Origin: Holophagaceae bacterium
GTDB taxonomy: Bacteria > Acidobacteriota > Holophagae > Holophagales > Holophagaceae
DNA length: 64,000 nucleotides
Reading direction: 5' to 3'
NCBI GenBank assembly: GCA_021286765.1
Contig: JAJTBS010000002.1
Coordinates: forward strand, 372,001-436,000
Positions 10,408 to 55,453 of this stretch are shown here, one piece after another; the first letter of the stretch is position 1; every line of letters starts with the position of its first letter. The position numbers and the translations under genes are program-made. The notes under the pieces are model-generated. The model did no database searches, was not told where the DNA came from, and saw only the letters and a list, made by a program, of their open reading frames with translations.

Positions 10408-11088
10408 CTACCTGGCCTCAATGACCAGGCCGCGTCCCCGCTGGGTGTGCAGCAAGGGGCGGTCAAAAGGGTCGTCCACCTTCGCCCGGAGCCGCCGGAT
10501 TTGGGCATCCAGGGCATTGGGGCTGCGCAGGTCGGGCCGATGTTTCTCGCCACCCCAGAGCGCCAGGGCCATCTCGTCGCGGCTGACCACCTGGCCAGGC
10601 CGCTCCAGCAGGAGGGTCAGCAGGGTGTATTCCTTCGGCGTGAGGTCGAGCCGATGGTCGCCTCGGTGCACGCGGCGCAGATCCGGTTCCCAGAGCAGGT
10701 CGGCCACGCCCACCCGGCGGAGGCGGGAAGGCATCCGGCTCCGCCGGATGAGGGCCCGAAGCCGGGCCGCCAGCTCCGGCAGGGTGAAGGGCTTGCAAAG
10801 GTAATCATCGGCACCTGCCTCCAGGCCCCGCACCCGGTGCTCAGGCGTGCAGAGCGCCGTCACGAAGATCAGAGGGGTGGTGATGGCTGCTTCCCTCAAG
10901 CGCCCGACCAGATCCATGCCCGAAAGGCCCGGCAGGGCGATCTCGGTGACCAGGGCTTCGCAGGCGGAGGCCCTGGCCAGGGCTTCGTGTCCTGTTCTAG
11001 CCCACTCACAGAGAAAGCCCTCCAAGGCCAGGCCCTCGATCATCCGCCGGGCATCGACCTCGTCTGGTTCTGCGATCAGGACCACCAT
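10408..11088 (-). CDS. OmpR-family response regulator with Glu at the phospho-acceptor position
   Basis: 226 residues: receiver domain (1-118) plus C-terminal winged helix (LDLTPKEYTLLTLLLERPGQ ... QIRRLRAKVDDP). Thr77 and Lys99 of the receiver are conserved (FVTA, CKPF). The phospho-accepting Asp is replaced by Glu49 (codon GAG) in VTEIALPGLSGMDL, and the N-terminal acidic pair is reduced (IAEPDE). Such a change often mimics the active form, so it may act without a kinase. No histidine kinase is adjacent. It lies downstream of two protease genes on the same strand, separated from them by a terminator. Confidence 0.88.
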   Translation of the reverse strand: MVVLIAEPDEVDARRMIEGLALEGFLCEWARTGHEALARASACEALVTEIALPGLSGMDLVGRLREAAITTPLIFVTALCTPEHRVRGLEAGADDYLCKPFTLPELAARLRALIRRSRMPSRLRRVGVADLLWEPDLRRVHRGDHRLDLTPKEYTLLTLLLERPGQVVSRDEMALALWGGEKHRPDLRSPNALDAQIRRLRAKVDDPFDRPLLHTQRGRGLVIEAR

Positions 11089-11103
11089 GGGGGCAGTCTA
11101 ACG

Positions 11104-11131
11104 AAAAACAGGGCCGCTCGCGCGGCCCTGT
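11104..11131 (-). terminator. Intrinsic terminator of the first M4 protease gene
   Basis: A perfect 10-bp stem (ACAGGGCCGC / GCGGCCCTGT, 4-nt loop) lies 19 nt after the protease stop. On the minus strand it is followed by a run of five T. The same hairpin is repeated at 13701-13724. Confidence 0.85.
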
Positions 11132-11742
11132 CCTGGGGGTGATGGCGCCTCAGCGGGTGAGGGCGAGGTTGTAGGGCGTGGTGGTGCTGGAGCCGCTGTA
11201 GGCGATCACCTTGATGTAGAACACGGTGGCCGTGGCCGAGGTGTTGGAGTAGGTGATGCTCTCGGTGGCGGTGGTGCCGAGGCTGCTCTTGAGGGTGGTG
11301 CCGCTGCTGTTGAGGAAGTAGAGGTCGTAATCGACGCCCGTGGGGCCGGTCATGTTGATGGTGATGCTCTTGCCGGGCTGGACATTGACCTTGAAGTAGT
11401 CGATGTCGGTGGTGGCGCTCATGTAGCCGACGATCTTGTTGACGGTGTCGCCGACAACGTTGGCGGTGGCGCGGGTGTTGTTGCTCTCGACCTCGTTGAA
11501 GGTGGTGCCGGTGGAGGTGTTGCTGGTGGAGAAGCTGACGGCGGTGGAGGTGCCGATGTTGCCGGCGGCGTCATAGGCCTTGGCGACGAGGCTGTGGGTG
11601 CCGTTGGCCAGGTTGGCGGAGTTGTAGGTGACGCTGTAGGGCGAAGTGGTGTCGGAGCCCACCAGGGCGCCGTCGATGTAGAACTCGACCTTGGTGACGC
11701 CGACATTGTCGGTGGCCGTGGCGGAGAGGGTGATGGTGCCCG
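11104..11742. repeat. 639-bp exact repeat, copy 1 (3' end of M4 protease gene plus terminator)
   Basis: By eye this stretch matches 13697-14335 base for base at a constant offset of 2593. It covers the terminator and the last 198 codons of the protease (Ig-like and PPC domains). The first differing base is A11743 against T14336, and identity drops immediately beyond it. This looks like recent gene conversion or duplication. Confidence 0.85.
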
Positions 11743-13519
11743 AGGTGCCGGACTCGGAGGCGCTGGCGGTGGGGGCCGTGGTGTCGGTGGAGCCGCCGGA
11801 CCAGGCGGCGCCCACATTGATGGCCGCGAAGGCATTCCAGACCGCCTGCTCGTCCGCGCCGCCGGCGCCATAGAGATCCTTGGCGGCGTTGATGAAGGCG
11901 GTGCGGGCGGCCGCGTAGTTGGTGCTGGCCGTCATGTAGACCGTCAGGGCCCGGTAGGCGATCTTGGCAGCGTGGTCGTTGCCGATGCCCGCCATGCCCG
12001 CGGGCATGTAGGAGCTGTAGTAGTCGCTGGTGGACACATTGCTGGAACCGCGGGCCAGGAAGTACCAGCATCGGTTCATGGGGCCGGAGGAGTAGTGCAC
12101 GTCCAGAGAGCCCAGGGTGCTGGACCAGGCGTCCTTCGAGGCGCCATCCTTGCTCGGCTTGTACATCCAGCGGAGCGCGCTGCCGGGGTGCCCCCAGCTG
12201 TTCTCGAACATTGTGTAGTTGGCGGTGATGCTGCCCGTGCCCACCGCATCGGGGATCACCGTGCCGGTTCCGCCTCCGCCGAGGATGTAGAACTCGACGC
12301 AGGTGCCGAAGATGTCCGAGATGGACTCGTTCAGCCCGCCCGATTCTCCGGAGTAGGTCAGGTTCGCCGAAGTGGCCGTCACCCCGTGGGTCATCTCGTG
12401 GCCGGCGGTATCGAGGTCCGCTTCACCCACGGAACCGCCGGTGGCACCGTCGCCATAGGTCATGCAGAAGCAGCTGTCCTGCCAGAAGGCGTTGTCGTAC
12501 TGGCTGCTGTAGTGCATGCGGCTGTAGGTGGCCTTGCCGGTGTTGTCGATGCCGTTCCGGCCGAACACGTTCTTGTACATGTCCCAGGTGGCCTGGAGCC
12601 CGCGGTGGGCATCCACGGCCGCCGTCTGGGCGTTGGCGCTCATGCCGGCGGTGCCGTTGTACTGGAGGCCGTCGCCCCAGGCGTTGTCGGCATCGGTGAA
12701 GACCGTGCCGTTGCCGCTGGTGCCGTTGTTCAGGTTGGTGGTGACGTTGTTCCCGAAGGTGCCGCCCGTGCCGCGGGTCATGTCCCGCATCTCGTAGCCG
12801 GTGGCCGTGCTGTTGGTGTTGATGGACACGGTGCCGTACCACTGGGACTTCCCGGTGCCGACCGCGGCGGACCGGTGCAGCGTGTCCCAGGTCTTGAGGA
12901 TGGCGCCGGTATGGGCATCGATCATGTAATCCTGGCTGCGGGTCTCCTCAGCGCCGTTGATGAGTTCCGCGTGCACATGGTAGGCCAGCGCATAGCGCAC
13001 CACTTCCCGGACGACTTCTGCGGCATTCGGTTCCTGATCCAGGGCTTGGCGTCCGGCATGGCGGACGACTTCCGTCGCCACGGGAAAGACGACGAGTTCC
13101 ACCGAGGGCTGATGGGTGTAGGGGCCCTTGGGCGAGAGGTCCCGGTGGGCGATGGCCAGTGCTTCCGCATCGGCGAGGGAAGGCGTGACGTTGAGGCGGA
13201 TGTTCTTGTGAAGGGCATTCGTCAGGGGCAGGTCAGATCCCGTGCTGTCTGTGTGGGTGATGGCGTCGCCACCCCACACCCGCACGCCCTTGTAGAGCTG
13301 GGTGAAGTGGCCATGGGTCTGCCCCAGGGCATCCGAATGCGACGCGCGGAGGCTGAATGCATGGTCGGCATCCAGACCCAGCTGTGTGCGGCTCGCGTGG
13401 AGGCGATCGGCGGCGCCGTTCACGCGCAGGGCCTCCTGCGGCGAGCCGGCGAAGAGGGAACCTGCGGCCAGCGCAGCGGTGACGAAGGACAGGGCCAAGC
13501 GGCCTGGGGTAGACGCCAT
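11150..13519 (-). CDS. Secreted M4 (thermolysin-type) metalloprotease with Ig-like and PPC domains
   Basis: 789 residues from the ATG at 13519 (GGAG 7 nt upstream). Domain order: signal peptide (about 1-24), FTP/PepSY propeptide (about 45-210), M4 catalytic domain (about 220-568) with the zinc site DTAGHEMTHG near residue 375 and the third ligand in GGLNESISDIFG, an Ig-like domain (about 583-665), and a PPC domain (about 670-789, DYFKVNVQPGKSITINMTGP). It should be secreted as a zymogen and digest extracellular protein. A paralogue lies directly upstream, and the C-terminal 198 residues are identical in both. A TTAAC direct-repeat box lies about 145 nt upstream. Confidence 0.92.
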   Translation of the reverse strand: MASTPGRLALSFVTAALAAGSLFAGSPQEALRVNGAADRLHASRTQLGLDADHAFSLRASHSDALGQTHGHFTQLYKGVRVWGGDAITHTDSTGSDLPLTNALHKNIRLNVTPSLADAEALAIAHRDLSPKGPYTHQPSVELVVFPVATEVVRHAGRQALDQEPNAAEVVREVVRYALAYHVHAELINGAEETRSQDYMIDAHTGAILKTWDTLHRSAAVGTGKSQWYGTVSINTNSTATGYEMRDMTRGTGGTFGNNVTTNLNNGTSGNGTVFTDADNAWGDGLQYNGTAGMSANAQTAAVDAHRGLQATWDMYKNVFGRNGIDNTGKATYSRMHYSSQYDNAFWQDSCFCMTYGDGATGGSVGEADLDTAGHEMTHGVTATSANLTYSGESGGLNESISDIFGTCVEFYILGGGGTGTVIPDAVGTGSITANYTMFENSWGHPGSALRWMYKPSKDGASKDAWSSTLGSLDVHYSSGPMNRCWYFLARGSSNVSTSDYYSSYMPAGMAGIGNDHAAKIAYRALTVYMTASTNYAAARTAFINAAKDLYGAGGADEQAVWNAFAAINVGAAWSGGSTDTTAPTASASESGTSGTITLSATATDNVGVTKVEFYIDGALVGSDTTSPYSVTYNSANLANGTHSLVAKAYDAAGNIGTSTAVSFSTSNTSTGTTFNEVESNNTRATANVVGDTVNKIVGYMSATTDIDYFKVNVQPGKSITINMTGPTGVDYDLYFLNSSGTTLKSSLGTTATESITYSNTSATATVFYIKVIAYSGSSTTTPYNLALTR

Positions 13520-13659
13520 GGGCAACTCCTGGAAGGGGAACAGTGGCCGGGCAGGCCGGTGGATGGATGCCGCGTCTCCCTTTCCCTGGCCAGGGGCGGG
13601 ATCACGGCGGATCGGAGGGATGAGGTCCACTCAAGGCTCAAGCGTGGTGGGTGTCTGCA

Positions 13660-13680
13660 CAAGTTAAGAGATGTTAATTC
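13660..13680 (-). promoter_or_regulatory. TTAAC-N5-TTAAC direct-repeat box before M4 protease 1
   Basis: On the minus strand the site reads ATTAACATCTCTTAACTTG: two TTAAC units 10 nt apart, 144 nt before the start codon. The same layout and the TTG tail occur before the second protease and before the gene at 39135. It resembles direct-repeat boxes of OmpR/PhoP-type regulators. Confidence 0.55.
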
Positions 13681-13696
13681 TCGGGTCCGCCGGAAT

Positions 13697-13724
13697 AAAA
13701 ACAGGGCCGCTCGCGCGGCCCTGT
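13697..13724 (-). terminator. Intrinsic terminator of the second M4 protease gene
   Basis: The same 10-bp perfect hairpin as at 11108-11131, followed on the minus strand by a T-run. It lies 19 nt after the protease stop and just upstream of the regulatory box of the next gene. Confidence 0.85.
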
Positions 13725-14335
13725 CCTGGGGGTGATGGCGCCTCAGCGGGTGAGGGCGAGGTTGTAGGGCGTGGTGGTGCTGGAGCCGCTGTAGGCGATC
13801 ACCTTGATGTAGAACACGGTGGCCGTGGCCGAGGTGTTGGAGTAGGTGATGCTCTCGGTGGCGGTGGTGCCGAGGCTGCTCTTGAGGGTGGTGCCGCTGC
13901 TGTTGAGGAAGTAGAGGTCGTAATCGACGCCCGTGGGGCCGGTCATGTTGATGGTGATGCTCTTGCCGGGCTGGACATTGACCTTGAAGTAGTCGATGTC
14001 GGTGGTGGCGCTCATGTAGCCGACGATCTTGTTGACGGTGTCGCCGACAACGTTGGCGGTGGCGCGGGTGTTGTTGCTCTCGACCTCGTTGAAGGTGGTG
14101 CCGGTGGAGGTGTTGCTGGTGGAGAAGCTGACGGCGGTGGAGGTGCCGATGTTGCCGGCGGCGTCATAGGCCTTGGCGACGAGGCTGTGGGTGCCGTTGG
14201 CCAGGTTGGCGGAGTTGTAGGTGACGCTGTAGGGCGAAGTGGTGTCGGAGCCCACCAGGGCGCCGTCGATGTAGAACTCGACCTTGGTGACGCCGACATT
14301 GTCGGTGGCCGTGGCGGAGAGGGTGATGGTGCCCG
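13697..14335. repeat. 639-bp exact repeat, copy 2
   Basis: Second copy of the segment at 11104-11742, same orientation, ending in the Ig-like domain of the second protease. Confidence 0.85.
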
Positions 14336-16067
14336 TGGTGCCGGACTCGGAGGCGGTGGCGGTGGGGGCCGTGGTGTCGGTGCTGGAGGACCAGGCGGCA
14401 CCCACATTGATGCCGTGGAAGGCGTTCCACACGGCCTGCTCCTCGGCGCTGCCGGCGCCATAGAGATCCTTGGCGGCGTTGATGGCGGCGGTGCGGGCGG
14501 CGGCGTAGTTGGAGCTGGCGGTGAGGTAGGTGGTGAGGGCCCGGAACCAGATGGCCGAGGCCTTGTCATTGCCCACGCCCGTCATGCCCGCGGGCAGCAG
14601 CGTGGTGCTGGTGTTGCCCGTGGTGGTGGCGCCCGCGCTCAGGAAGTAGAAGCAGCGGTTCATGGGGCCGCTGGAGTAGTGGACATCCAGGGAGCCCAAG
14701 GTGCTGGACCAGACATCCTTCGAGGCGCCGTCCAGGCTGGGCTTGTACATGTAGCGCAGGGGGGTGGAGGCGAGCTGCTCGCCGATGGTCCAGTTGCCGC
14801 CGGTGTTGCCGATGGTGGCGCCGGAGCCTCCGCGGGCGTAGAACTCGATCATGGTGCCGAAGATGTCCGAGTTGGACTCGTTCAGGCCGCCCGACTCACC
14901 GGAGTAGGTCAGGTTGGCGGTGCGGGCGCAGACGCCGTGGCTCATCTCATGGCCGGCCACGTCGAGGGCGGTGAGGGTCGTGAAGCTGGTGCCGTCGCCA
15001 TAGGTCATGCAGAAGCAGCTGTCGGACCAGAAGGCGTTGTCGTAGCTGTTGCCGATGTGCACGCGGCTGTAGGTGGTGCTGCCGGCGCCATCGATGCCAT
15101 TGCGGCCGTAGACCAGCTTGTAGAAGTCCCAGGACTTGGCCATGCCGAACATGGCGTCCACGGCGGCCGTCTGGCCGTTGGCGGCGGTGGTGGAGCTGCC
15201 TTCCACATAGTTGGCGCCATCGCCCCAGGTGTTGTCGGCATCGGTGTAGATGGTGCCCACGGCGGTGGAGGTGGTGGAGGCGTGGTTCGCGTTGGTTACG
15301 TAGTTGCCGGCGGCGCCGCGGGTCATGTCCCGCATCTCGTAGCCGCCCGTGACGCTGTTGGTGTTGACCGTCACCACGCCGTTGTACTGGCTGTTGCCGG
15401 TGCCGGTGGCGGCCGCGGTGTGCAGGGTGTTCCACTTCTTCAGGATGGCGCCGGTGTGGGCATCCACGATGTAGTCGGTGTGCCGGATGCCGTCGAGGTC
15501 ATTCTCGAGTTCGGTGTGGACGTGGTAGGCCAGGGCGAAGCGGACCACCTGCCGGGTGATGTCCGTGGCGCTCGGTTCCTGATCCAGAGCCTGGCGGCCG
15601 GCATGGCGGGTGACGACGTCGACTTCCTGCGGGAAGACCACCAGCTCGGTGGTGGGGGCGTAGGCGAAGGCACCCTTGGCGGCCAGATCGGCCTGGGCCA
15701 CGGCCAGCGCCTCGCCGGCCAGCAGGGAGGGGGTGACGTTCAGGAGGATGTTCTTGTGCAGGGCGTTGGTCAGCGGCAGGTCGGCGCCATTGCGGTCGGT
15801 GTGGGTGATGGCGTCGCCACCCCACACCCGCACGCCCTTGTAGGACTGGGTGAAGTGGGCGTGGGTCTGGCCGAGGTCGTCCGAGTGCGACGCGCGCAGG
15901 CTGAATGCGTGGTCGGCATCCAGACCCAGCTGCGTGCGGCTCGCATGGAGGCGGTCGGCAGCGCCGTTCACGCGCAGGGTCTCCTGCGGCGAATTGGCGA
16001 AGAGGGAACCGGCAGCCAGGGCTGCGGTGATGAAGGACAGGGCCATGCGGCCTTTGGTAGTCGCCAT
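13743..16067 (-). CDS. Secreted M4 (thermolysin-type) metalloprotease, paralogue 2
   Basis: 774 residues from the ATG at 16067 (GAGGAG upstream). Same order of signal peptide, propeptide, M4 domain, Ig-like domain and PPC domain as its neighbour. The zinc site is DVAGHEMSHG near residue 372, with GGLNESNSDIFG supplying the third ligand. The propeptides share long stretches (for example NGAADRLHASRTQLGLDADH), while the catalytic domains have clearly diverged, which suggests different cleavage preferences. The C-terminal 198 residues match the neighbour exactly. An AT-rich block and a TTAAC box lie upstream. Confidence 0.92.
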   Translation of the reverse strand: MATTKGRMALSFITAALAAGSLFANSPQETLRVNGAADRLHASRTQLGLDADHAFSLRASHSDDLGQTHAHFTQSYKGVRVWGGDAITHTDRNGADLPLTNALHKNILLNVTPSLLAGEALAVAQADLAAKGAFAYAPTTELVVFPQEVDVVTRHAGRQALDQEPSATDITRQVVRFALAYHVHTELENDLDGIRHTDYIVDAHTGAILKKWNTLHTAAATGTGNSQYNGVVTVNTNSVTGGYEMRDMTRGAAGNYVTNANHASTTSTAVGTIYTDADNTWGDGANYVEGSSTTAANGQTAAVDAMFGMAKSWDFYKLVYGRNGIDGAGSTTYSRVHIGNSYDNAFWSDSCFCMTYGDGTSFTTLTALDVAGHEMSHGVCARTANLTYSGESGGLNESNSDIFGTMIEFYARGGSGATIGNTGGNWTIGEQLASTPLRYMYKPSLDGASKDVWSSTLGSLDVHYSSGPMNRCFYFLSAGATTTGNTSTTLLPAGMTGVGNDKASAIWFRALTTYLTASSNYAAARTAAINAAKDLYGAGSAEEQAVWNAFHGINVGAAWSSSTDTTAPTATASESGTTGTITLSATATDNVGVTKVEFYIDGALVGSDTTSPYSVTYNSANLANGTHSLVAKAYDAAGNIGTSTAVSFSTSNTSTGTTFNEVESNNTRATANVVGDTVNKIVGYMSATTDIDYFKVNVQPGKSITINMTGPTGVDYDLYFLNSSGTTLKSSLGTTATESITYSNTSATATVFYIKVIAYSGSSTTTPYNLALTR

Positions 16068-16230
16068 GGGCAACTCCTCACGGGGGGAAGGGGAGTTCAC
16101 AGCCGCACAGGTTCTTCCGGCCTGGGCGGCTCCCGGCAGCTGCGAGGATTGGATTCGCAGCGGCCTGGGGTGACGTGGGGAAAGAACGGGAGCGTGGGAG
16201 TCAGCTTCCGGGCAGACCCTGCCTCCTCTC

Positions 16231-16250
16231 AAGTTAAGGGTTGTTAATTT
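16231..16250 (-). promoter_or_regulatory. TTAAC-N5-TTAAC direct-repeat box before M4 protease 2
   Basis: On the minus strand: AATTAACAACCCTTAACTTG, the two TTAAC units 10 nt apart, followed by GAGAGG. It lies about 166 nt before the start codon and directly beside an AT-rich block. Confidence 0.55.
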
Positions 16251-16325
16251 TCTTGAGAATCAATTCTATTTAATATTTGATTTAATAAATCTATATTTAT
16301 TAATAATTAATAATCAATTTCAAGA
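16248..16325. promoter_or_regulatory. AT-rich intergenic block (UP-element-like)
   Basis: About 80 bp composed almost wholly of A and T (runs such as TTTAATATTTGATTTAATAA) in otherwise GC-rich DNA. It lies upstream of protease 2 and downstream of the amidohydrolase stop. It could be an UP element, a nucleoid-protein site or an easily melted promoter. A weak GC stem (CCGC/GCGG at 16326-16338) next to it may end the amidohydrolase transcript. Confidence 0.45.
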
Positions 16326-39074: not shown

Positions 39075-39092
39075 TTAACATCAATTAACTTG
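39075..39092 (+). promoter_or_regulatory. TTAAC-N5-TTAAC direct-repeat box upstream of gene at 39135
   Basis: Reads CTTAACATCAATTAACTTG, then AGAA. Same spacing, tail and orientation relative to the gene as the boxes before both M4 protease genes. 46 nt separate its second repeat from the start codon. Confidence 0.55.
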
Positions 39093-39134
39093 AGAACCGA
39101 TGGGTTGGCTGAGCAGATGATTCCAGAGGTTTCC

Positions 39135-39389
39135 ATGCAGTTGACGTCCCACGACCGTTGCGTGCTCCACCTGGCCTCCCGGGATGCCGAAGGACGGCTC
39201 GGCTTCTTCCTCGATGAAGAGGGCGTGGTCTCGCTGCTGGGCAAGGGCGAGACCCAGGCCGTGCCGGCCGGGGAATCGCTGCCGAAGCTGGAGGAGGGCG
39301 GCCTCCTGAGCCTGGACCTCAGCCACTCCTACGTGCTCACGCCGAAGGGCTGGGAGACGGTCCAGGCGCTGGTGGCGCTGGCCTCCTGA
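39135..39389 (+). CDS. Small protein of unknown function (84 aa)
   Basis: 84 residues from the ATG at 39135, with AGAGG 5 nt upstream; the open frame extends further upstream but into clearly non-coding sequence. The protein is mixed alpha/beta (CVLHLASRDAEGRLGFFLDE, GLLSLDLSHSYVLTPKGWET). The last part could be a short winged-helix-like element. I do not recognise the family. Its position next to the direct-repeat box suggests regulated expression. Confidence 0.6.
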   Translation: MQLTSHDRCVLHLASRDAEGRLGFFLDEEGVVSLLGKGETQAVPAGESLPKLEEGGLLSLDLSHSYVLTPKGWETVQALVALAS

Positions 39390-46883: not shown

Positions 46884-47993
46884 ATGACCGCCGCCGACCT
46901 GATCCAGTCCACCGTGCGCCGCTTCCAGAGGCCCGCGGCCTGGGCCATGGTGCTCGGATTCCAGGTGCTCTGGGTGCCCTCGCGCCTGTTGGCGGGCGTT
47001 CCCTGGGAGCGGATGGGGGCCTGGGAGTTTTTCGTTCCCGCGCTGTTCCTGCTGGGACACCTGGCCCTCGCTCCCCTTCCCTGGCAGTGGAGTGGCGATG
47101 GACGGCGGGAGCCGCCGCTCTGGCGGGGCGCCCTCCAGGCGGTGCCCTGGAACCTTGCCTGGGTCCTGCTGCTCCTGCTGGTTGCCCAGGACCTGGTTCA
47201 GCCGGCTCGGCCCCGCAGGGAGGGGGCCCGGGGGCCGGCAAGCACGGAAGGGGATGTGCGGCCTCGGGATCGGGAACCCCAACGGGGACCCTGGCCCAGG
47301 CAGGAATGGATCCAGCTCTTTGTGAACTTCCCCTTCGCCGTGGTGCTTGGCTGGTTCTTGGCGGAGAAGGAACGTGTGGAGCGGGACGAAGACGACTTGC
47401 GCAATCGCGAACGGGAGGCCCGCGCCGCGGCCCTCCAGTCCCAGCTCCACCCCCACGCCCTCTTCAATGTGCTGGGCGGGCTCACCGAGCTGGTCCACGA
47501 GGATCCCGACGCGGCAGAGGAGGCCCTGGTGGGGCTCACCGAGCTGTTGCGGATGCTGCTCAGGCACGGCTCGGCACTTGCTCTTCCCCTGGGGCAGGAG
47601 CGCAAGCTGGTGGAGCGTTACCTTGAGATTGAGGCCATCCGGCTGGGTCCCCGGCTTACCGTGGAGTGGGCCTGGGATCCGGCCCTGGACGGCCGGAACC
47701 TGCCTCCCCTGCTGATCCAGCCCCTGGTCGAGAACGCCATCAAGCACGGCATCTCCCCCCATCCGGAAGGTGGGCGGCTCCGCATCCAGGGCAGCCTCGG
47801 GCCCGAGGGTTTCCACTTCAGGGTGGCCAACACCGGTCAACCCCTCGGAGCGGTCATCAGGGATGGCACGGGTCTGGGCAACCTTCGGCAGCGGCTGGCG
47901 CTGCTGCCAGGGCCGCCATCCAGCCTGTCCCTGCTGCAGGAAGGCGATTGGACGGTGGCGGACCTGCGCCTCGGCGCTACCTTGGGGACATGA
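46884..47993 (+). CDS. LytS-type sensor histidine kinase
   Basis: 369 residues. Four hydrophobic segments in the N-terminal 160 residues (AAWAMVLGFQVLWVPSRLLA, FFVPALFLLGHLALAPLPWQ, NLAWVLLLLLVAQDL, LFVNFPFAVVLGWFLAEKER) and no extracellular sensor domain to speak of. Then the His_kinase phospho-acceptor ALQSQLHPHALFNVLGGLTE and an HATPase domain (PLLIQPLVENAIKHGISPHP, DGTGLGNLRQRLALL). It starts 4 nt after the phosphatase gene and overlaps the regulator gene, so a dedicated pair is likely. Confidence 0.9.
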   Translation: MTAADLIQSTVRRFQRPAAWAMVLGFQVLWVPSRLLAGVPWERMGAWEFFVPALFLLGHLALAPLPWQWSGDGRREPPLWRGALQAVPWNLAWVLLLLLVAQDLVQPARPRREGARGPASTEGDVRPRDREPQRGPWPRQEWIQLFVNFPFAVVLGWFLAEKERVERDEDDLRNREREARAAALQSQLHPHALFNVLGGLTELVHEDPDAAEEALVGLTELLRMLLRHGSALALPLGQERKLVERYLEIEAIRLGPRLTVEWAWDPALDGRNLPPLLIQPLVENAIKHGISPHPEGGRLRIQGSLGPEGFHFRVANTGQPLGAVIRDGTGLGNLRQRLALLPGPPSSLSLLQEGDWTVADLRLGATLGT

Positions 47994-48736
47994 TCCCCAT
48001 GTTGCGCGTTGCCATCGCCGAGGACGAGCCCATGAACCTGAGGCGTCTTGCGCGGCTCCTCCAGGACTGCGGCTGCGAGGTGGTGGCCACCTTCGGGAAT
48101 GGGCTCGAGCTGGAGGAATGGGTCGCAGAGGGCGCCCAGGTTGACGCCTTGTTCCTCGACATCCAGATGCCCGGCCTGGATGGGCTCAGCCTCCGGGCCT
48201 CCCTTCCGTCCACCCTGCCGGTTGTCTTCGTGACCGCCTTCGCGGAGCACGCGGTCGAGGCCTTCGACCTGGAGGCGGTGGACTACCTGCTGAAGCCCGC
48301 CACCACCGAGCGCCTGGTGAAGGCCCTGGCGAGAGTCCGCCGTGCCCTAGGCCGGGAGGATTCCACCCCGGATGCCAAACAGGCCAAGGCTGGCCGCTAC
48401 CCCGTGATGGCCGGCAAGGATGTGCTCTTCCTCCCCCTGGCCAAGACCACACACTTTGAAGTGGAAGAGCAGGTGGTCTGGGCCTATGCCGGCGAGAAAT
48501 ACCGCACCAAGTGGAAGAGCCTGGGCGAGGTGGAAGCGGCTTTCCCGGACTCGGGCCTGCTGCGCATCCACCGGCACCTGCTCCTGCGTCCCGAGGCAGT
48601 GCTCGGGCTGCGGTCCACCGGTGGTGGGACCCGGCTGCTGGTCCGCCTGCATGGTGGTCTGGAGTTGGAGGCGAGCCGGGGGGCCACCCCGAGGCTCAAG
48701 GCCCGGCTCGGGCTGGGCGAATCGCGGGAACCCTGA
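47990..48736 (+). CDS. LytTR-family response regulator
   Basis: 248 residues from the ATG at 47990, overlapping the kinase stop (ATGA). Receiver domain with Asp57 in FLDIQMPGLDGL, Thr in FVTAFAEHAVEAF and Lys in DYLLKPATTERL. LytTR DNA-binding domain from about 145 (EQVVWAYAGEKYRTKWKSLG, SGLLRIHRHLLLRPEAVLGL). Likely regulates the upstream phosphatase genes or itself. The longer upstream frame overlaps the kinase and is not used. Confidence 0.9.
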   Translation: MIPMLRVAIAEDEPMNLRRLARLLQDCGCEVVATFGNGLELEEWVAEGAQVDALFLDIQMPGLDGLSLRASLPSTLPVVFVTAFAEHAVEAFDLEAVDYLLKPATTERLVKALARVRRALGREDSTPDAKQAKAGRYPVMAGKDVLFLPLAKTTHFEVEEQVVWAYAGEKYRTKWKSLGEVEAAFPDSGLLRIHRHLLLRPEAVLGLRSTGGGTRLLVRLHGGLELEASRGATPRLKARLGLGESREP

Positions 48737-49189: not shown

Positions 49190-50074
49190 ATGGGTAAGCA
49201 GGTGGGTAAGGATGGAAGCAAGGAAGGAGAGAAGGAAGGGGGTAAGGAAGTCTCTAAGGTGAATATCAATAAAGCGAAAAAAAGTTGTGTTGATGGCTGT
49301 ACCATCGACATTCGTAAGCCTACTAACTGGATGGATGAACTGCCAGCCAAAGGCATTGGAACCTGTCCTGGCGGGCCTCTGCTTTCAGCCATGGACCTGC
49401 ATTCTTTGCGGCACAGTCAGAATGCAGAGGTCATGTCGGTTCGGACCGGCCTCCTGGAACCTACCATGCTCCAGGCTGCCCGGGCGGCAGGGATCCACCC
49501 CACCGTGATCAAGCAGGTCTACTCGCTGACGCCTCCCGGGACGTGGACCGTCGAGCATGCCCTCTGTGGCTATCTGGCCGTCAACAGCCTCCGGAACCCT
49601 GCCCTTCGTCCGGCTACGATGGCCTTGGTCAAGCCGATTGTTCGGTCGCTTGGCTCCTGCCTCGTGGCTGACTTGGATCTTGAGACCTTGCGGGTCTGGT
49701 TCCATGGCCAGATGACGAAGGAGGACGGCGGGGCCAAAGGCCGGAACACGAGCGACCGGTCGGGTCGAGCCCGAATCCATCGGCGGGCGGCAGTCCTCCG
49801 CGCAGCGTTGGCCTACGCCCACCATCAGGGGTGGGCTGGTGCTGATGCCGCATTGCATGCCCTGGTCCAGGTGGTCCGGGAGTGGCATCGCGAGATGGTG
49901 AAGCGCAGTGAGGTGAAGCACCGTGAACAGGTGCAGGCACTGCTGGCGGTGCTGGATCCCAAGGTCCGCGCCAAAATCGGCTTCTCCCTGTGGAACCAGA
50001 TGCGGGCTCTGGCGATCAGGGGCATGTGGCCCACGGCACCCTCGAAGACTTCCAAGAGCGGAGGTGAGGCATGA
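49190..50074 (+). CDS. Recombinase partner protein / core-binding-domain-like
   Basis: 294 residues from the ATG at 49190 (GGAGG 6 nt upstream). The N-terminus is a very Lys/Glu/Gly-rich stretch (MGKQVGKDGSKEGEKEGGKE). The middle and C-terminus are alpha-helical (RPATMALVKPIVRSLGSCLV, then ADLDLETLRVWFHGQMTKED, RRAAVLRAALAYAHHQGWAG) and look like the SAM-like N-terminal domain of tyrosine recombinases without a catalytic domain. The stop overlaps the integrase start (ATGA), so both are made together. A helper or excisionase-type role is inferred. Confidence 0.6.
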   Translation: MGKQVGKDGSKEGEKEGGKEVSKVNINKAKKSCVDGCTIDIRKPTNWMDELPAKGIGTCPGGPLLSAMDLHSLRHSQNAEVMSVRTGLLEPTMLQAARAAGIHPTVIKQVYSLTPPGTWTVEHALCGYLAVNSLRNPALRPATMALVKPIVRSLGSCLVADLDLETLRVWFHGQMTKEDGGAKGRNTSDRSGRARIHRRAAVLRAALAYAHHQGWAGADAALHALVQVVREWHREMVKRSEVKHREQVQALLAVLDPKVRAKIGFSLWNQMRALAIRGMWPTAPSKTSKSGGEA

Positions 50075-51975
50075 CCCGAGCCAAGCCGGCAAAGGCGAGC
50101 CGGAAGGCCGCCATCTCGTTCATCACGTCCGATGACCGTGCCAAGATCCCGATCCGGAAGGCACCCTACTGGATGCCACTGGGGGAGGGACAGTCTCTGG
50201 GGCTCCAGAAGCGAGAGACTGGGACTGTGTGGCTGGCTCGGTTGACCACTCCCAGGAGGCAGGAAGTGATCGGTGTGCCTGAGGAGGAGCGCATCCGGTC
50301 AAAGTGCCCAACGCTGACCTGTGCACAAGCCATGATCGTGGCGGAGGCTTGGTGTCAGTCGACCCTGAATCCCCCCCTTCCTGCAACGCCCCTGGTTCGG
50401 GCTGCGGGCAGCACGACCGTCCCCGAGGATCCTACGATCGGTGATGCACTGGACCAAGCCCTCCACGTGCTTGAGTCCAGGCAGATCGAAGCAGTGGGGA
50501 CGTCCCGGTCACGGATCAACAAGATCAAGCGGGAGATCGGCCACATCAAGCTCAAGAAACTCGTGATGCAGGACCTCACGGACTGGCTTGCGAACATGGT
50601 GATTACTCCGCCTGCCCGTCGTTCCAAGAAGGGGGCAGCGCCCAACTACGCTGCCGATTGGGATCCAAACAACCCCGTCAACAAAAGGCGTCGCCAGTCG
50701 ACAGCCAACCGTTGTTTGAGCGACCTGAAGGCTGCTTTGAACCGCGCCTACCGGAACCGCTGGGTTGACTCGGATCAGGCCTGGAGCACGATCGAGCCCT
50801 TTCCGGATGCCACTGGGGTGCGGGAAGAGGTGCTGGATGCCAAGCAGCAGAGTGATTTTTTAAATGCCTGCACTCCTGAGTTTCGCCCGCTGGCCTTTGC
50901 GGCCTTGCTGACTGGCATCCGCTATGGCCCGATGACCAGGTGGAAGGTAAAGGACTTTCGACCCCTTGATCACTGTTTGCGGGTGGGCTGGGATAAAAGG
51001 CATCGGCGAGACCGCCTCGCCCCTCTCACAGATGAAGCCATGGCGGTCTTCTACTACATCACCGAGGACCGCGACCCGGAAGATTTCATCTTCCTCAAAG
51101 CGAATGGGAAGCCCTGGGGACGCAACCATCAGCTTCGCCCGATGGGTGAAGGTACCAAGTCTATTGACATCGATATTTCGTTCTACAACCTCCGTCACAC
51201 TGCCATCACCAACTGGATGATTGCCGGTGTCGAAGCAGAAGTGGTGGCGATAGCCGTCGGAACAACTCCGAAGATGATTAACGAGCACTATACGAACCCG
51301 CGAATTGGGGTTCTCGCAGACAAGCTCAACAAGAAGGTGACGCGCATCAGTTCGTCCAACGCTGAGATCGAATTCGTGTCGAGGAAGTTCGAGAAGCTCC
51401 GCCTGGAGCGACTCGAATGCTCCAAGGAACTCGATTTCAGCTTCGCGTCGTTGCACCCCAGGAACTACATCGGAAAACTCTACGGAGGTTTGGTGGATGC
51501 ACCTCCACCCAAGGTTAAGCCAACCCGAGAGGAACTTCAGGCGCTGGTCTGGGAGATTCCGGTCTCCCATATCGCTGAGAAGTATGAGGTCTCTGGCGTG
51601 ACGATTAAGAAGTGGTGCGAGAAGCAGGGCATTGAGGTGCCTGCTCGGGGCTACTGGACCCGCCGCCGCTGTGAAGAACGCCAGGCCGCCAAACTGGCGG
51701 CGAAGGGCTTGCCCCCTCGTCCTCCCAAGCCCAGCAAAGAGGTGCTTGAGGATCTGATCTGGAAGATGCCCGCCACAGACGTGGCCAAGATGTTTGACAC
51801 CACGGGACCCACGGTCCTGAAGTGGGCCGTCAGGATGGGCATCAAGTGTCCAGGCCGCGGTTATTGGAGCAAGAGGGGCGGGGAGGCTTACCAGAAGCGC
51901 AAGAAGGCTCTGTGTCTGGCAGCTCGCAGGAAGGCAGCCCAGTCCATGCCTGATGTGACTGCGCTGTCAGCCTGA
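50071..51975 (+). CDS. Tyrosine recombinase (integrase) with tandem C-terminal HTH repeats
   Basis: 634 residues, about 200 more than usual. A core-binding region (about 120-250) precedes the catalytic domain: AALLTGIRYGPMTRWKVKDF (Arg near 285), SFYNLRHTAITNWMIAG (HxxR-type box near 372) and MINEHYTNPRIGVL (nucleophile Tyr near 407). After it come two similar modules, LVWEIPVSHIAEKYEVSGVT...KWCEKQGIEVPARGYW and LIWKMPATDVAKMFDTTGPT...KWAVRMGIKCPGRGYW, which look like HTH units. They probably add DNA contacts or target choice. It likely drove integration at tRNA-Glu. Confidence 0.87.
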   Translation: MTRAKPAKASRKAAISFITSDDRAKIPIRKAPYWMPLGEGQSLGLQKRETGTVWLARLTTPRRQEVIGVPEEERIRSKCPTLTCAQAMIVAEAWCQSTLNPPLPATPLVRAAGSTTVPEDPTIGDALDQALHVLESRQIEAVGTSRSRINKIKREIGHIKLKKLVMQDLTDWLANMVITPPARRSKKGAAPNYAADWDPNNPVNKRRRQSTANRCLSDLKAALNRAYRNRWVDSDQAWSTIEPFPDATGVREEVLDAKQQSDFLNACTPEFRPLAFAALLTGIRYGPMTRWKVKDFRPLDHCLRVGWDKRHRRDRLAPLTDEAMAVFYYITEDRDPEDFIFLKANGKPWGRNHQLRPMGEGTKSIDIDISFYNLRHTAITNWMIAGVEAEVVAIAVGTTPKMINEHYTNPRIGVLADKLNKKVTRISSSNAEIEFVSRKFEKLRLERLECSKELDFSFASLHPRNYIGKLYGGLVDAPPPKVKPTREELQALVWEIPVSHIAEKYEVSGVTIKKWCEKQGIEVPARGYWTRRRCEERQAAKLAAKGLPPRPPKPSKEVLEDLIWKMPATDVAKMFDTTGPTVLKWAVRMGIKCPGRGYWSKRGGEAYQKRKKALCLAARRKAAQSMPDVTALSA

Positions 51976-52009
51976 TGTCCCTTCTGACCGTGAATCGCCA
52001 AGCCGCATT

Positions 52010-52043
52010 GGACCCCTTCAGGTGCCATTGCCTGAGGGGATCC
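52010..52043 (+). other. Imperfect hairpin after the integrase gene
   Basis: GGACCCCTTCAGG pairs with CCTGAGGGGATCC across 8 nt (one mismatch, one G-T pair). No T-run follows. It lies just before the UDG-like gene and may lower its expression. Confidence 0.5.
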
Positions 52044-52060
52044 ACCTACACTTAACCTAC

Positions 52061-52756
52061 ATGCTCAACCGTTGGTCTCCCTTCATGCAGGATCTGGAGC
52101 AGCGCTACCAGGCAGTCAGCGGCCTGCAGGATCGGGCGTTCTACAAGATCTTCTACGGACCAGTGCGACCCGCACCGATCCTTCTGCTTGGAATCAATCC
52201 CGGCGGGGATCCATCCGAAGTGGCTGAAGGAGCGCTGAAGCGGAAGGACGGCCAAGATTCGGCAGCCTCAGCAGCCTTCTACGAGCACGATGAGTGCGAC
52301 CTCCTTGACTGCAATTGGCCGGAGAACACTGGGCTCAAGAAACTCCTCGTGCCGCTGTTTGCTGGAGACGAGAGTCGGATCCGCACTGAGGTGGTCAAGA
52401 CCAACCTGGCCTTCAGGCGCTCCAAGAAGAAAACCGGCATCGACTTTGAGCGAGCCAAGCAGGAAGCAACGCCGTTTCTCTCCGAGATCATCGGGAGGGT
52501 CCAACCCAGGCTGGTGTTGCTGACGAGCCTGGATGTGGCTTCCTTCATTGACAGCTTTGGCTCCGTCATGGAACCAGTCGTTGCCCAGGAGCGCGACCCG
52601 AAGGTGGGGCAGATCGTCTTCGAGGCGGCCCGGACGACGCTTCGTGGAACGGCCTCAGAAGCCCTGGTGGTTCGCGTGGCCCACGCCTCTCAGTTCGCCT
52701 GGACCTATGCTCGCTATGACGTCGTCCGGCGCATCCAGGCACTCGTGACACTCTGA
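52061..52756 (+). CDS. Uracil-DNA-glycosylase-superfamily-like protein
   Basis: 231 residues from the ATG at 52061; a GTG at 52022 is an alternative but has no ribosome site. The segment RPAPILLLGINPGGDPSEVA is like the UDG active-site strand (GxxPG/NPG), and VQPRLVLLTSLDVASFI and ALVVRVAHASQFAW resemble later strands of the fold. UDG-type proteins cut the base-sugar bond in damaged or foreign DNA. The catalytic residue is uncertain, so activity is inferred only from the fold. 75 nt before the PP2C gene. Confidence 0.5.
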   Translation: MLNRWSPFMQDLEQRYQAVSGLQDRAFYKIFYGPVRPAPILLLGINPGGDPSEVAEGALKRKDGQDSAASAAFYEHDECDLLDCNWPENTGLKKLLVPLFAGDESRIRTEVVKTNLAFRRSKKKTGIDFERAKQEATPFLSEIIGRVQPRLVLLTSLDVASFIDSFGSVMEPVVAQERDPKVGQIVFEAARTTLRGTASEALVVRVAHASQFAWTYARYDVVRRIQALVTL

Positions 52757-52831
52757 GCGCCTTGTTCGGAGCCGAGCAACGACCACGTCACCATCTCTCA
52801 TCCCCTGTCATCGATCAGCAAGGTCCAACCC

Positions 52832-53446
52832 GTGGAAATCTACGCTGCCACCAGACGCCAAGACGGACGGTCGACCAACGAGGACGCCTACCTCCTTGGT
52901 CGGGGGGAAGTGCCCTACGCAGCCCTTTGTGATGGCTCAGGGGCTGCCCAGGGCGTGGCCAAGCGCGCCCTGGGTATCTTCCAGCGGTTGATGACCGAGG
53001 CGACCCAGGATGATGTCGGCCAGTTCGCGACCTGGTCCAATTGGACCCAACTGCTCGATTCCGCGCTCATGGGCGGTCCACAAAGCACCTTCGTGGCAGT
53101 TGCAATCTTAGGAAACCGGGCGTTTGGAGCCTGTGTGGGCGATTCCCGCCTCTACCGACTGGTCCCGGAAGGGGGCATCGAGATCGTGACCGAGGAAGCC
53201 TCGAAATTCCGACTGGGCAGCGGCAAAGCGGTGCCTTGCCCCATCCATCTCCCGCTCAAGGCCGGAGAGGTGCTCCTCCTGGCGAGCGATGGTGCCTGGA
53301 CCCCCTTGGGGCTTCCCGTCCTCCAAAGGGTCTGGGGGCGGTCAGCCTCGCGCCATTTCTCGGAGTTCCCGACTCTGCTGCTAGAGGAGGCGGGGAAGAA
53401 CGGCTGCGCGGATGACATGACCGTCATCGCGATGAGGCAGGGGTAG
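52832..53446 (+). CDS. PP2C-type protein phosphatase
   Basis: 204 residues from a GTG. Metal-binding and core motifs: RRQDGRSTNEDAYLLG, PYAALCDGSGAAQGVAKRAL, GACVGDSRLYRLVPEGG, LLLASDGAW and GCADDMTVIAMRQG, matching a minimal PPM domain with all Asp residues. Removes phosphate from Ser/Thr on proteins. No kinase gene is near apart from HipA, which phosphorylates serine and could be the counterpart, though no link is shown. Confidence 0.8.
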   Translation: MEIYAATRRQDGRSTNEDAYLLGRGEVPYAALCDGSGAAQGVAKRALGIFQRLMTEATQDDVGQFATWSNWTQLLDSALMGGPQSTFVAVAILGNRAFGACVGDSRLYRLVPEGGIEIVTEEASKFRLGSGKAVPCPIHLPLKAGEVLLLASDGAWTPLGLPVLQRVWGRSASRHFSEFPTLLLEEAGKNGCADDMTVIAMRQG

Positions 53447-53811
53447 CTCTACCGGCCTTCGCTGAGCGAAAGCCCTGCTTCCAGGGGGAGGTGAACTCTG
53501 CCCTCTTGGGGTTTTATACAGGGGTTCGAATGCATAAGGGTAATAATTCAAGATATAGAGAATAATGATCTTATGAATTGACGACGGTCGGAAATCGGGC
53601 AATTGGCCTCACTTTGACCTCACCTAAACTTCAGTGTCTGACCGGCCAATACAAGGTATGGCAAGGCGCGGCGAGGTTGCTCGAACTGGCAGGTAGGTGC
53701 CTAAAGGTGGTGGGGTTCGATTCTCGGGCGGCACCACCTCCCCGACAGAATCTGGTCTGCCAAGCCGCCAATCTGGAGGATTGGTTGGGGCGCGTTCAGT
53801 GGATGGGCTCA
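53447..53811. other. Non-coding stretch with recombinase-site-like repeats and a tRNA-like T-arm
   Basis: No gene is supported here. It holds the inverted GCCTCAC/ACCTCAC pair at 53606-53623, a GGTGCC/GGCACC inverted repeat around 53698-53736, and GGGGTTCGATTC followed by CACCA (53712-53736) that looks like a tRNA 3' end, but no complete cloverleaf can be folded. Confidence 0.4.
53606..53623 (-). repeat. AAGTGAGGC-like direct repeats, right (inverted)
   Basis: On the minus strand: GTGAGGTCAAAGTGAGGC, with an 11-nt period. Mirror of the left pair at 48961-48980. Confidence 0.5.
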
Positions 53812-53814
53812 AAA

Positions 53815-53935
53815 AATATCCCGATCGGGAATATTTGAGTGTCGAGAATCGAATTTGCAACAAAATTTACCGATCGGGAAATATTTAATGAAATCTAGGA
53901 TCGAGGGGTAAATACTTACCCGCACGGGAAAGAAA
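53815..53935 (+). promoter_or_regulatory. Three HipB operator-like palindromes
   Basis: CCCGATCGGG at 53820-53829, CCGATCGGG at 53870-53878 and CCCGCACGGG at 53919-53928, each followed by AAATA-like AT tails, repeat every 49-50 bp upstream of hipB. The spacing of about five helical turns would place bound HipB dimers on one DNA face. Confidence 0.75.
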
Positions 53936-53936
53936 T

Positions 53937-54179
53937 ATGATCAGACCCACCATCACACCATCTGACCTGGGGGCCCTTGTTAGAGCCGCCCGCAAGGCAC
54001 AGGGCCTGCGCCAGGATGAACTGGCAGGCGTGGCCGGCGTCGGCCTACGTTTCATCGTCGAGTTGGAAGGGGGAAAGCCCACCGTCCAACTGGGGAAGGT
54101 CCTGAGGGTCCTGGAGACATTGGGTTGCGGTCTCACCATCACAGCACCTGCTGAGCAGAAGCCAGGAGGCAAACCGTGA
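53937..54179 (+). CDS. hipB: HipB-like antitoxin / HTH repressor
   Basis: 80 residues: an XRE helix-turn-helix (LGALVRAARKAQGLRQDELA, GVAGVGLRFIVELEGGKPTV) and a short C-terminus (VLRVLETLGCGLTITAPAEQ). HipB binds HipA and the palindromic operators to repress the operon. Its stop overlaps the GTG of hipA (GTGA). Confidence 0.88.
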   Translation: MIRPTITPSDLGALVRAARKAQGLRQDELAGVAGVGLRFIVELEGGKPTVQLGKVLRVLETLGCGLTITAPAEQKPGGKP

Positions 54180-55453
54180 GCCGCTCGTTGGTGGTGTGGT
54201 GGGACGGCAGGGTGGTGGGGGCACTGACCCAAGACGATGGGGGCGAACTTGGGTTTGCCTATGGAGCGGATTGGCTTGAGGCCGACGATGCGCCAGCGCT
54301 CTCCGTCTCCCTGCCCAAGCGCACCGAGCCGTTCTCTCGTCGGGAGTGCCGCCCGTTCTTTGGAGGACTCCTGCCGGAGGAGACGCAGCGGCGAGCGGCT
54401 GCCCAGGCTCTGGGCATTTCGGCAGGTAATGACTTCGCCCTGCTGGATCGCCTAGGCGGCGATGTGGCGGGTGCGCTCCAATTTCTGCACACAGGTGAGC
54501 AGCCCCAGGACGCTATGGGCCCCTGGCGGTCTCGGGCTTTGGATGATGAAGAGCTGCTGCGGATCCTCGATACCTTGCCACTGCGCCCCCTGTTGGCCGG
54601 GGAGGAGGGGTTGCGCCTGTCCCTGGCTGGTGCCCAGGCGAAGGTGCCTGTGGTGTTGGTGGGAGACCGGGTGGCCCTGCCACAGCCCGGACAACCCACC
54701 ACCCACATCCTGAAACCAGCCATCCCGCGCTTCGAGGACACCACCGAGAACGAGGCCTTCGCCATGCGGCTGGCTGCTGCGGCTGGACTTGAGGTGGCGG
54801 CTGTGGAACCTCGCGTTCTACGGACTCCGGGTGGAGCGATCAGGACCTTCTTGCTGGTGGAACGCTACGACCGGGCCGTCGCCCCCACAAGCATGGTCCG
54901 TCGTCTCCACCAGGAGGACTTCTGCCAAGCCCTCAGTATTCCAGTCGAGCGCAAATACCAGAGTGAGGGCGGACCTTCCCTGGAAGATGGCTTCGCCATG
55001 CTGCGACGAGTCTCTGCTCGGCCAGCGGCGGATGTCATCAAGCTGCTGGATGCTGTGATCTTCAACGTGGTGGTTGGGAACGCGGATGCCCATGGCAAGA
55101 ACTTCTCGATCCTTTATGCGGACACTGGAGCCCGCCTGGCACCCCTCTACGACCTGTTGTCGACCGTCATGTACCCGGAGCTTTCTCCCAGGTTCGCCAT
55201 GAAAATCGGGAAGCAGGCACGCCTAGCGGACCTGGACGCGGAGAGCTGGTCTGACTTTGCAAAAAAGGCGGGATTGGGACTTCCGCTGGTGCGGCGCAGA
55301 GTCAGTGAACTGGCCTCTGGGCTTACAGAAGCGACCACGGTGACACTTGAAGGCCTTGCTGGTACCGGGCTGCACACTAAGGCTCTTGAACGGTTGGCAG
55401 CCCTTGTCGAATCGCGGTCAGAGGCGTGCGCTACAAGCCTTACGAAGAAATGA
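54176..55453 (+). CDS. hipA: HipA-type serine/threonine kinase toxin
   Basis: 425 residues. N-terminal HipA domain (LVVWWDGRVVGALTQDDGGE, LPEETQRRAAAQALGISAGN), the segment RLSLAGAQAKVPVVLV, and the kinase core with FNVVVGNADAHGKNFSILYA (catalytic Asp near 301) and LAPLYDLLSTVMYPELS (metal-binding Asp near 324). HipA phosphorylates glutamyl-tRNA synthetase in E. coli. Full-length and intact, GTG start overlapping hipB, paired with the operators above. Confidence 0.9.
   Translation: MSRSLVVWWDGRVVGALTQDDGGELGFAYGADWLEADDAPALSVSLPKRTEPFSRRECRPFFGGLLPEETQRRAAAQALGISAGNDFALLDRLGGDVAGALQFLHTGEQPQDAMGPWRSRALDDEELLRILDTLPLRPLLAGEEGLRLSLAGAQAKVPVVLVGDRVALPQPGQPTTHILKPAIPRFEDTTENEAFAMRLAAAAGLEVAAVEPRVLRTPGGAIRTFLLVERYDRAVAPTSMVRRLHQEDFCQALSIPVERKYQSEGGPSLEDGFAMLRRVSARPAADVIKLLDAVIFNVVVGNADAHGKNFSILYADTGARLAPLYDLLSTVMYPELSPRFAMKIGKQARLADLDAESWSDFAKKAGLGLPLVRRRVSELASGLTEATTVTLEGLAGTGLHTKALERLAALVESRSEACATSLTKK

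Follow-up and report, generated by a model that had tools for sequence, protein, structure and literature searches.

A conserved TTAAC direct repeat upstream of secreted protease genes in Geothrix, a probable operator of an OmpR/PhoB-family activator

Among the described systems closest to the TTAAC direct repeat reported here from Geothrix, CpxR has the box GTAAA-N5-GTAAA and ArcA a GTTAA direct repeat with an 11-bp period, and the half-site of Escherichia coli OmpR differs in sequence from TTAAC. E. coli OmpR occupies two 10-bp half-sites as a tandem dimer (PMC7380067). The PHO boxes of E. coli, Bacillus subtilis, and other bacteria are built of 11-nt units (PMC4415409). The CtrA box of Alphaproteobacteria reads TTAA-N7-TTAA, with activation sites near -35, and sites with 6-bp spacing and an invariant A at -11 have been proposed in Rhodobacter sphaeroides and Magnetospirillum (PMC6180460).

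The Geothrix box shares with the CtrA box a near-identical half-site, the direct repeat, and a predicted position near -35; however, its TTAA units are separated by N6 in all sites found (a 10-bp period), TTAAC is followed by A, and it precedes genes for secreted enzymes instead of cell cycle or flagellar genes. Moreover, no CtrA orthologue was found among the three OmpR-type regulators scanned of the five in the genome (the three that are not KdpE-like), which scored about 111 to 150 bits (best, 149.7) against the 350-bit NCBIfam cutoff. Like the PHO boxes of E. coli PhoB and Bacillus PhoP, the Geothrix box consists of direct repeats beside -35 that would serve an OmpR/PhoB-family activator, but its units measure 10 nt, and the pst genes of Geothrix have an 11-nt repeat of their own. 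Thus, on the features tested, the box belongs to neither the PHO-box nor the CtrA class. The 10-bp period is also that of E. coli OmpR, although the candidate Geothrix regulator falls below the NCBIfam OmpR cutoff. CpxR has the same period and, on the other strand, a half-site differing by one base, and the ArcA half-site is identical on the other strand but repeats every 11 bp. The literature searched contained no report of a regulon or transcription factor binding site for Geothrix or any other member of the Holophagae; as far as that search reaches, the operator is new for the genus, while its kind is already known. By comparing genomes, we obtain a well-defined operator, the families of its target genes, and a candidate regulator of extracellular proteolysis that can be tested, as some species of the genus are in culture (G. 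limicola and G. rubra).

Occurrence of the box in the window and across Geothrix

The 64-kb window (the whole stretch of DNA that was analyzed) contains three TTAAC-N5-TTAACTTG boxes. An earlier sequence-only reading had described TTAAC direct repeats 10 nt apart, followed by TTG and in the same orientation to the gene, at 13663, 16233, and 39075, and these were recovered exactly. The boxes and their nearest genes are as follows.

13660..13677, minus strand: box 1, TTAACATCTCTTAACTTG, 5' of the first M4 protease gene (TTAAC pair at 13663-13677, then TTG)
11150..13519, minus strand: secreted M4 protease 1, with FTP propeptide, M4 catalytic, and Big_7 domains
16230..16247, minus strand: box 2, TTAACAACCCTTAACTTG, 5' of the second M4 protease gene (TTAAC pair at 16233-16247, then TTG)
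13743..16067, minus strand: secreted M4 protease 2
39075..39092, plus strand: box 3, TTAACATCAATTAACTTG, with 42 nt from TTG to the ATG of a small-protein gene (TTAAC pair at 39075-39089)
39135..39389, plus strand: 84-aa predicted winged-helix protein, the target of box 3, with no Pfam or NCBIfam match

The orientation toward the downstream gene is identical at all three sites, and matches with at most one mismatch number 3 in the window, compared to 0.14 expected from dinucleotide-preserving shuffles. In a genome-wide scan, which the same reading had proposed, TTAACN5TTAACTTG occurs three times in the whole 3.15-Mb Geothrix genome, always within one 25-kb stretch of the window, and the reversed pattern gave 0 exact matches. 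Without the TTG, five exact copies were found, versus 0 in the reversed control; they precede the two M4 protease genes, the small-protein gene, a gene for a secreted protein (contig C7), and a TonB-like gene (contig C4). Since allowing one mismatch added 4 copies, compared to 22 in the control, there is no excess of weak copies, and the box set in this genome is small and exact.

The extended box TTAACN5TTAACTTG is present in 30 of 47 Geothrix genomes (reversed pattern, 0), where it precedes two gene types only: genes for secreted M4 (thermolysin-like) proteases, at about 75 to 180 nt from the ATG, and the small winged-helix protein gene. Box 2 is a syntenic copy kept across the genus. Other genera of the family yielded four exact matches (G054, G055, G056, and G058); none precedes an M4 protease gene, and they may be due to chance. 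Dropping the TTG defines a wider set, TTAACAWNNNTTAAC, whose sites nearly always read TTAACA[A/T]NNNTTAAC; box-bearing species carry 4 to 12 copies of TTAACN5TTAAC per genome, against 0 to 2 in the control.

To describe this wider set, 40 more stretches around TTAACN5TTAAC sites in relatives were retrieved and examined. All 99 distinct sites are outside called genes, and for 92 of them a gene on the same strand starts within 330 nt. The downstream genes sort into 14 families, among them M4 proteases of several types, an M16 peptidase, a DUF4402 protein followed by a PapD-like chaperone, a Phi_1 (phosphate-induced) domain protein, a sortilin/Vps10-like protein, PKD/Big_7 surface proteins, a lipase-like protein, a TonB-like protein, a helicase-like protein, and several without assignment. 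Signal peptides mark 8 of the 14 families, a modest excess over the 31% of background genes; the TonB-like, helicase-like, and small proteins are not exported. Two sites in relatives are tandem arrays, one with three and one with four TTAAC units in 10-bp steps. Judged from sequence, the box is a real, well-conserved operator of a small regulon for which there is a candidate regulator. In three genomes (G018, G007, and G022; stretches L177, L200, and L214), the box lies between a gene for another OmpR-type response regulator and the DUF4402 gene, which in G018 is followed by the PapD-like gene.

Promoter architecture and the protease locus

Among 57 non-redundant sites, 15 have a TAnnnT hexamer at offset 22 to 25 after the box, compared to 2.0 in shuffles, and the best 4-nt window in 1,000 shuffled sets held 9. 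The looser xAnnnT peaks at offset 22 to 24. We infer that this hexamer is the -10 element; if so, the box spans about -50 to -36, the position of a class II activator site, which suggests activation rather than repression. For the protease promoters, this would place the start of the -35 element at the invariant TTG, with gAnnCT as the -10 element. The putative -10 elements in the window are as follows.

13634..13639, minus strand: putative -10 element GAGCCT, at offset 23 after box 1
16203..16208, minus strand: putative -10 element GAAGCT, at offset 24 after box 2
39114..39119, plus strand: putative, weak -10 element CAGATG (TAGATG in several relatives), at offset 24 after box 3

OmpR/PhoB-type operators are characterized by head-to-tail repeats of 10 to 11 bp and a fixed promoter position. 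The Geothrix sites repeat every 10 bp without exception, include arrays of three and four units, and show an excess of -10-like hexamers, placed by sequence, at offset 22 to 25. Because of these traits and the constant orientation, binding by an OmpR-type protein fits the box architecture. The family proposed by the sequence-only reading, which had pointed to OmpR-family regulators and to the Bacillus PhoP box, was thus supported, whereas the PhoP part was not, as PHO boxes consist of 11-nt units.

In relatives, the protease locus is syntenic and runs from a GTPase Der-like gene, often through an amidohydrolase gene, to the box, the M4 protease gene, and recN. In the window, each of the two M4 protease genes has one box. 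The tandem genes share 82% DNA identity over their full length; their 3' parts, together with terminator hairpins (11100-11800 and 13699-14400), are near-identical, and their 5' parts differ. The pair looks like a recent duplication or gene conversion.

On the 5' side of box 2 (16248-16280) lies another conserved element, AAATAGAAnTGATTCTCA, which stops a few bases short of the first TTAAC and is present at most protease promoters (also in stretches L014 to L053, L180, and L201). It resembles a Fur-type site, which suggests a second regulator at these promoters. Alignment of 16170-16200 with relatives revealed a conserved CnTCTTTC word about 15 to 20 nt past the putative -10 element, probably in the early transcript. 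Two further candidates were rejected. The hairpin CTCAAG...CTTGAG around box 2 is present in some genomes and broken in others (rows L020, L024, and L031) and is therefore not a conserved RNA feature; an Rfam search around box 2 gave no match. Likewise, GGAAnCTGA and CGTTCTTTC were considered as -35 and -10 elements of one protease promoter, but their spacing varies by several bases.

Candidate regulators of the box

Only five proteins of this genome carry an OmpR-type DNA-binding domain: a PhoB-like regulator beside pstB-phoU, two KdpE-like regulators, the neighbor of the proteases, and a regulator on contig C6 (G000:C6:35801-36526) encoded beside a sensor kinase. The neighbor is placed as follows.

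10408..11088, minus strand: adjacent OmpR-type response regulator, with close orthologues in 5 of 47 genomes

The sequence-only reading had pointed out that this gene comes right after the proteases. Its product is of the OmpR type, and the gene follows the proteases directly both here and in two relatives (G015 and G029); its close orthologues (at least 73% identity), however, occur in 5 of the 47 genomes while the box occurs in 30 (Fisher P = 0.14). This distribution rules it out as the general reader, and that it reads the box at all is very improbable.

The C6 regulator shows a much closer match. Its orthologues, 86 to 100% identical, occur in 30 of 47 genomes, and its distribution follows that of the extended box, with 28 genomes having both, 2 the box only, 2 the regulator only, and 15 neither (Fisher P = 2e-8). 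The genomes lacking both fall into three separate groups in a RecN tree, so the association does not stem from a single event. About three independent events underlie the association, and with so few of them a tree-aware test does not reach significance. There are also exceptions: of the two box-only genomes, one is G031 (94% complete), in which no C6 regulator was found, and the other is 64% complete; G043 has the regulator and no box was found in it; and G040 and G042 are without the regulator, yet each has three matches to the short motif. The operon of the C6 regulator itself has no TTAAC box, and the protein scores 167 bits with the NCBIfam CpxR model, whose cutoff is 341 bits. These data point to the C6 regulator as the best candidate reader, and no more than that.

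On this evidence, TTAACAWNNNTTAAC is probably the operator of one OmpR/PhoB-family activator, most likely the C6 response regulator, that governs a Geothrix regulon made up mainly of secreted proteases and other exported proteins. Two (sometimes three or four) subunits would bind head to tail on the 10-bp direct repeats, at about -50 to -36, and the bound activator would help sigma-70 RNA polymerase at promoters with a weak -35 element and a TAnnCT or gAnnCT -10 element. The regulon would comprise mainly secreted proteases, with other exported or surface proteins and the small winged-helix protein. A real class II activator operator with a different reader, either a KdpE-like regulator or one from outside the OmpR family, is a rather unlikely alternative. 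Two KdpE-like members of the family exist in this genome, and the link between the C6 regulator and the box is correlative, with few independent events behind it; nonetheless, arrays of this kind, head to tail with a 10-bp period, typify the OmpR family and so narrow the candidates here to a few, and KdpE-type regulators are expected at potassium transport genes. More tentatively, the C6 kinase-regulator pair, highly conserved and PhoB-like yet not concerned with phosphate, could form a dedicated two-component system for exoenzymes. Through the 10-bp TTAAC operator, it would turn on genes for surface proteins and for secreted proteases of the M4 and M16 types and, in some species, the gene for a stand-alone winged-helix protein acting as second-tier regulator; operator and regulator are absent together in three lineages.

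Proposed phosphate control and the 39-kb locus

The sequence-only reading had raised phosphate starvation as the signal, with box 3 ahead of two secreted phosphatases. The two Metallophos proteins at 43.7 to 46.9 kb are real, but they lie at least 4.6 kb past box 3 behind three other genes, and the first gene after the box encodes the 84-aa protein, not a phosphatase. We further examined the start of the pst operon in seven genomes. In six of them, the pst promoter carries the pair GTTACANNGATGTCAC (GTTAC/GTCAC), with an 11-nt period, before pstS (e.g., L258:4200-4280); for G043, the remaining genome, the predicted start lies too far upstream for the repeat to be judged. No TTAAC box was found at these promoters (best match, 4 mismatches), and pst or pho genes, before which the earlier reading had suggested looking for hits, were absent from the targets examined. 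This 11-nt repeat is probably the PHO box of the genus, so that the TTAAC operator can now be told apart from the organism's own PHO box.

A phosphate reading is unlikely because the pst promoters carry this other repeat and PHO boxes are 11-nt repeats. In its strict form, the TTAAC box would itself be a PHO box, with phosphate starvation turning on the proteases and the 39-kb locus by way of PhoB/PhoP; the OmpR-family architecture, a half-site that resembles the Bacillus PhoP unit as the earlier reading noted, the Metallophos genes farther downstream of box 3, and a Phi_1 protein among the targets elsewhere would agree with it. We regard it as highly unlikely, as PhoB-like homologues (46% matches) also occur in genomes without the box, and the targets are proteases and surface proteins.

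The gene behind box 3 has orthologues of 82 to 101 aa, and in all 10 genomes with the gene the box lies 41 to 45 nt before the ATG, with 1 mismatch in one of them. The locus is syntenic among these relatives. A high-confidence predicted structure of the small protein (pLDDT, 92.9) contains a winged-helix domain, and among solved structures those of MarR-family regulators come nearest to it (Z up to 9.3 over about 70 residues). The likeness to the MarR family lies in this modeled fold; the sequence matched no Pfam or NCBIfam model, a Foldseek search with the model gave no significant match by E value, and a PDB sequence search gave chance matches only. Judged from the model, the protein may be a second-tier regulator. 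Given its predicted fold and a box that precedes its own gene by 42 nt, it might be thought to bind the box and control both itself and the proteases. That is scarcely credible, as the gene is missing from 37 of 47 genomes, about 20 of which have the protease box, and its absence there rules it out as the general reader. The C6 regulator remains the candidate that we favor.

Right after the two Metallophos genes, a His_kinase and a LytTR response regulator are encoded as a pair at 46884-48736. Farther downstream, the stretch at 50071-55453, with a phage-type integrase gene (50071-51975), a HipA-like toxin gene (54176-55453), and a weaker coding signal, is probably an acquired island.
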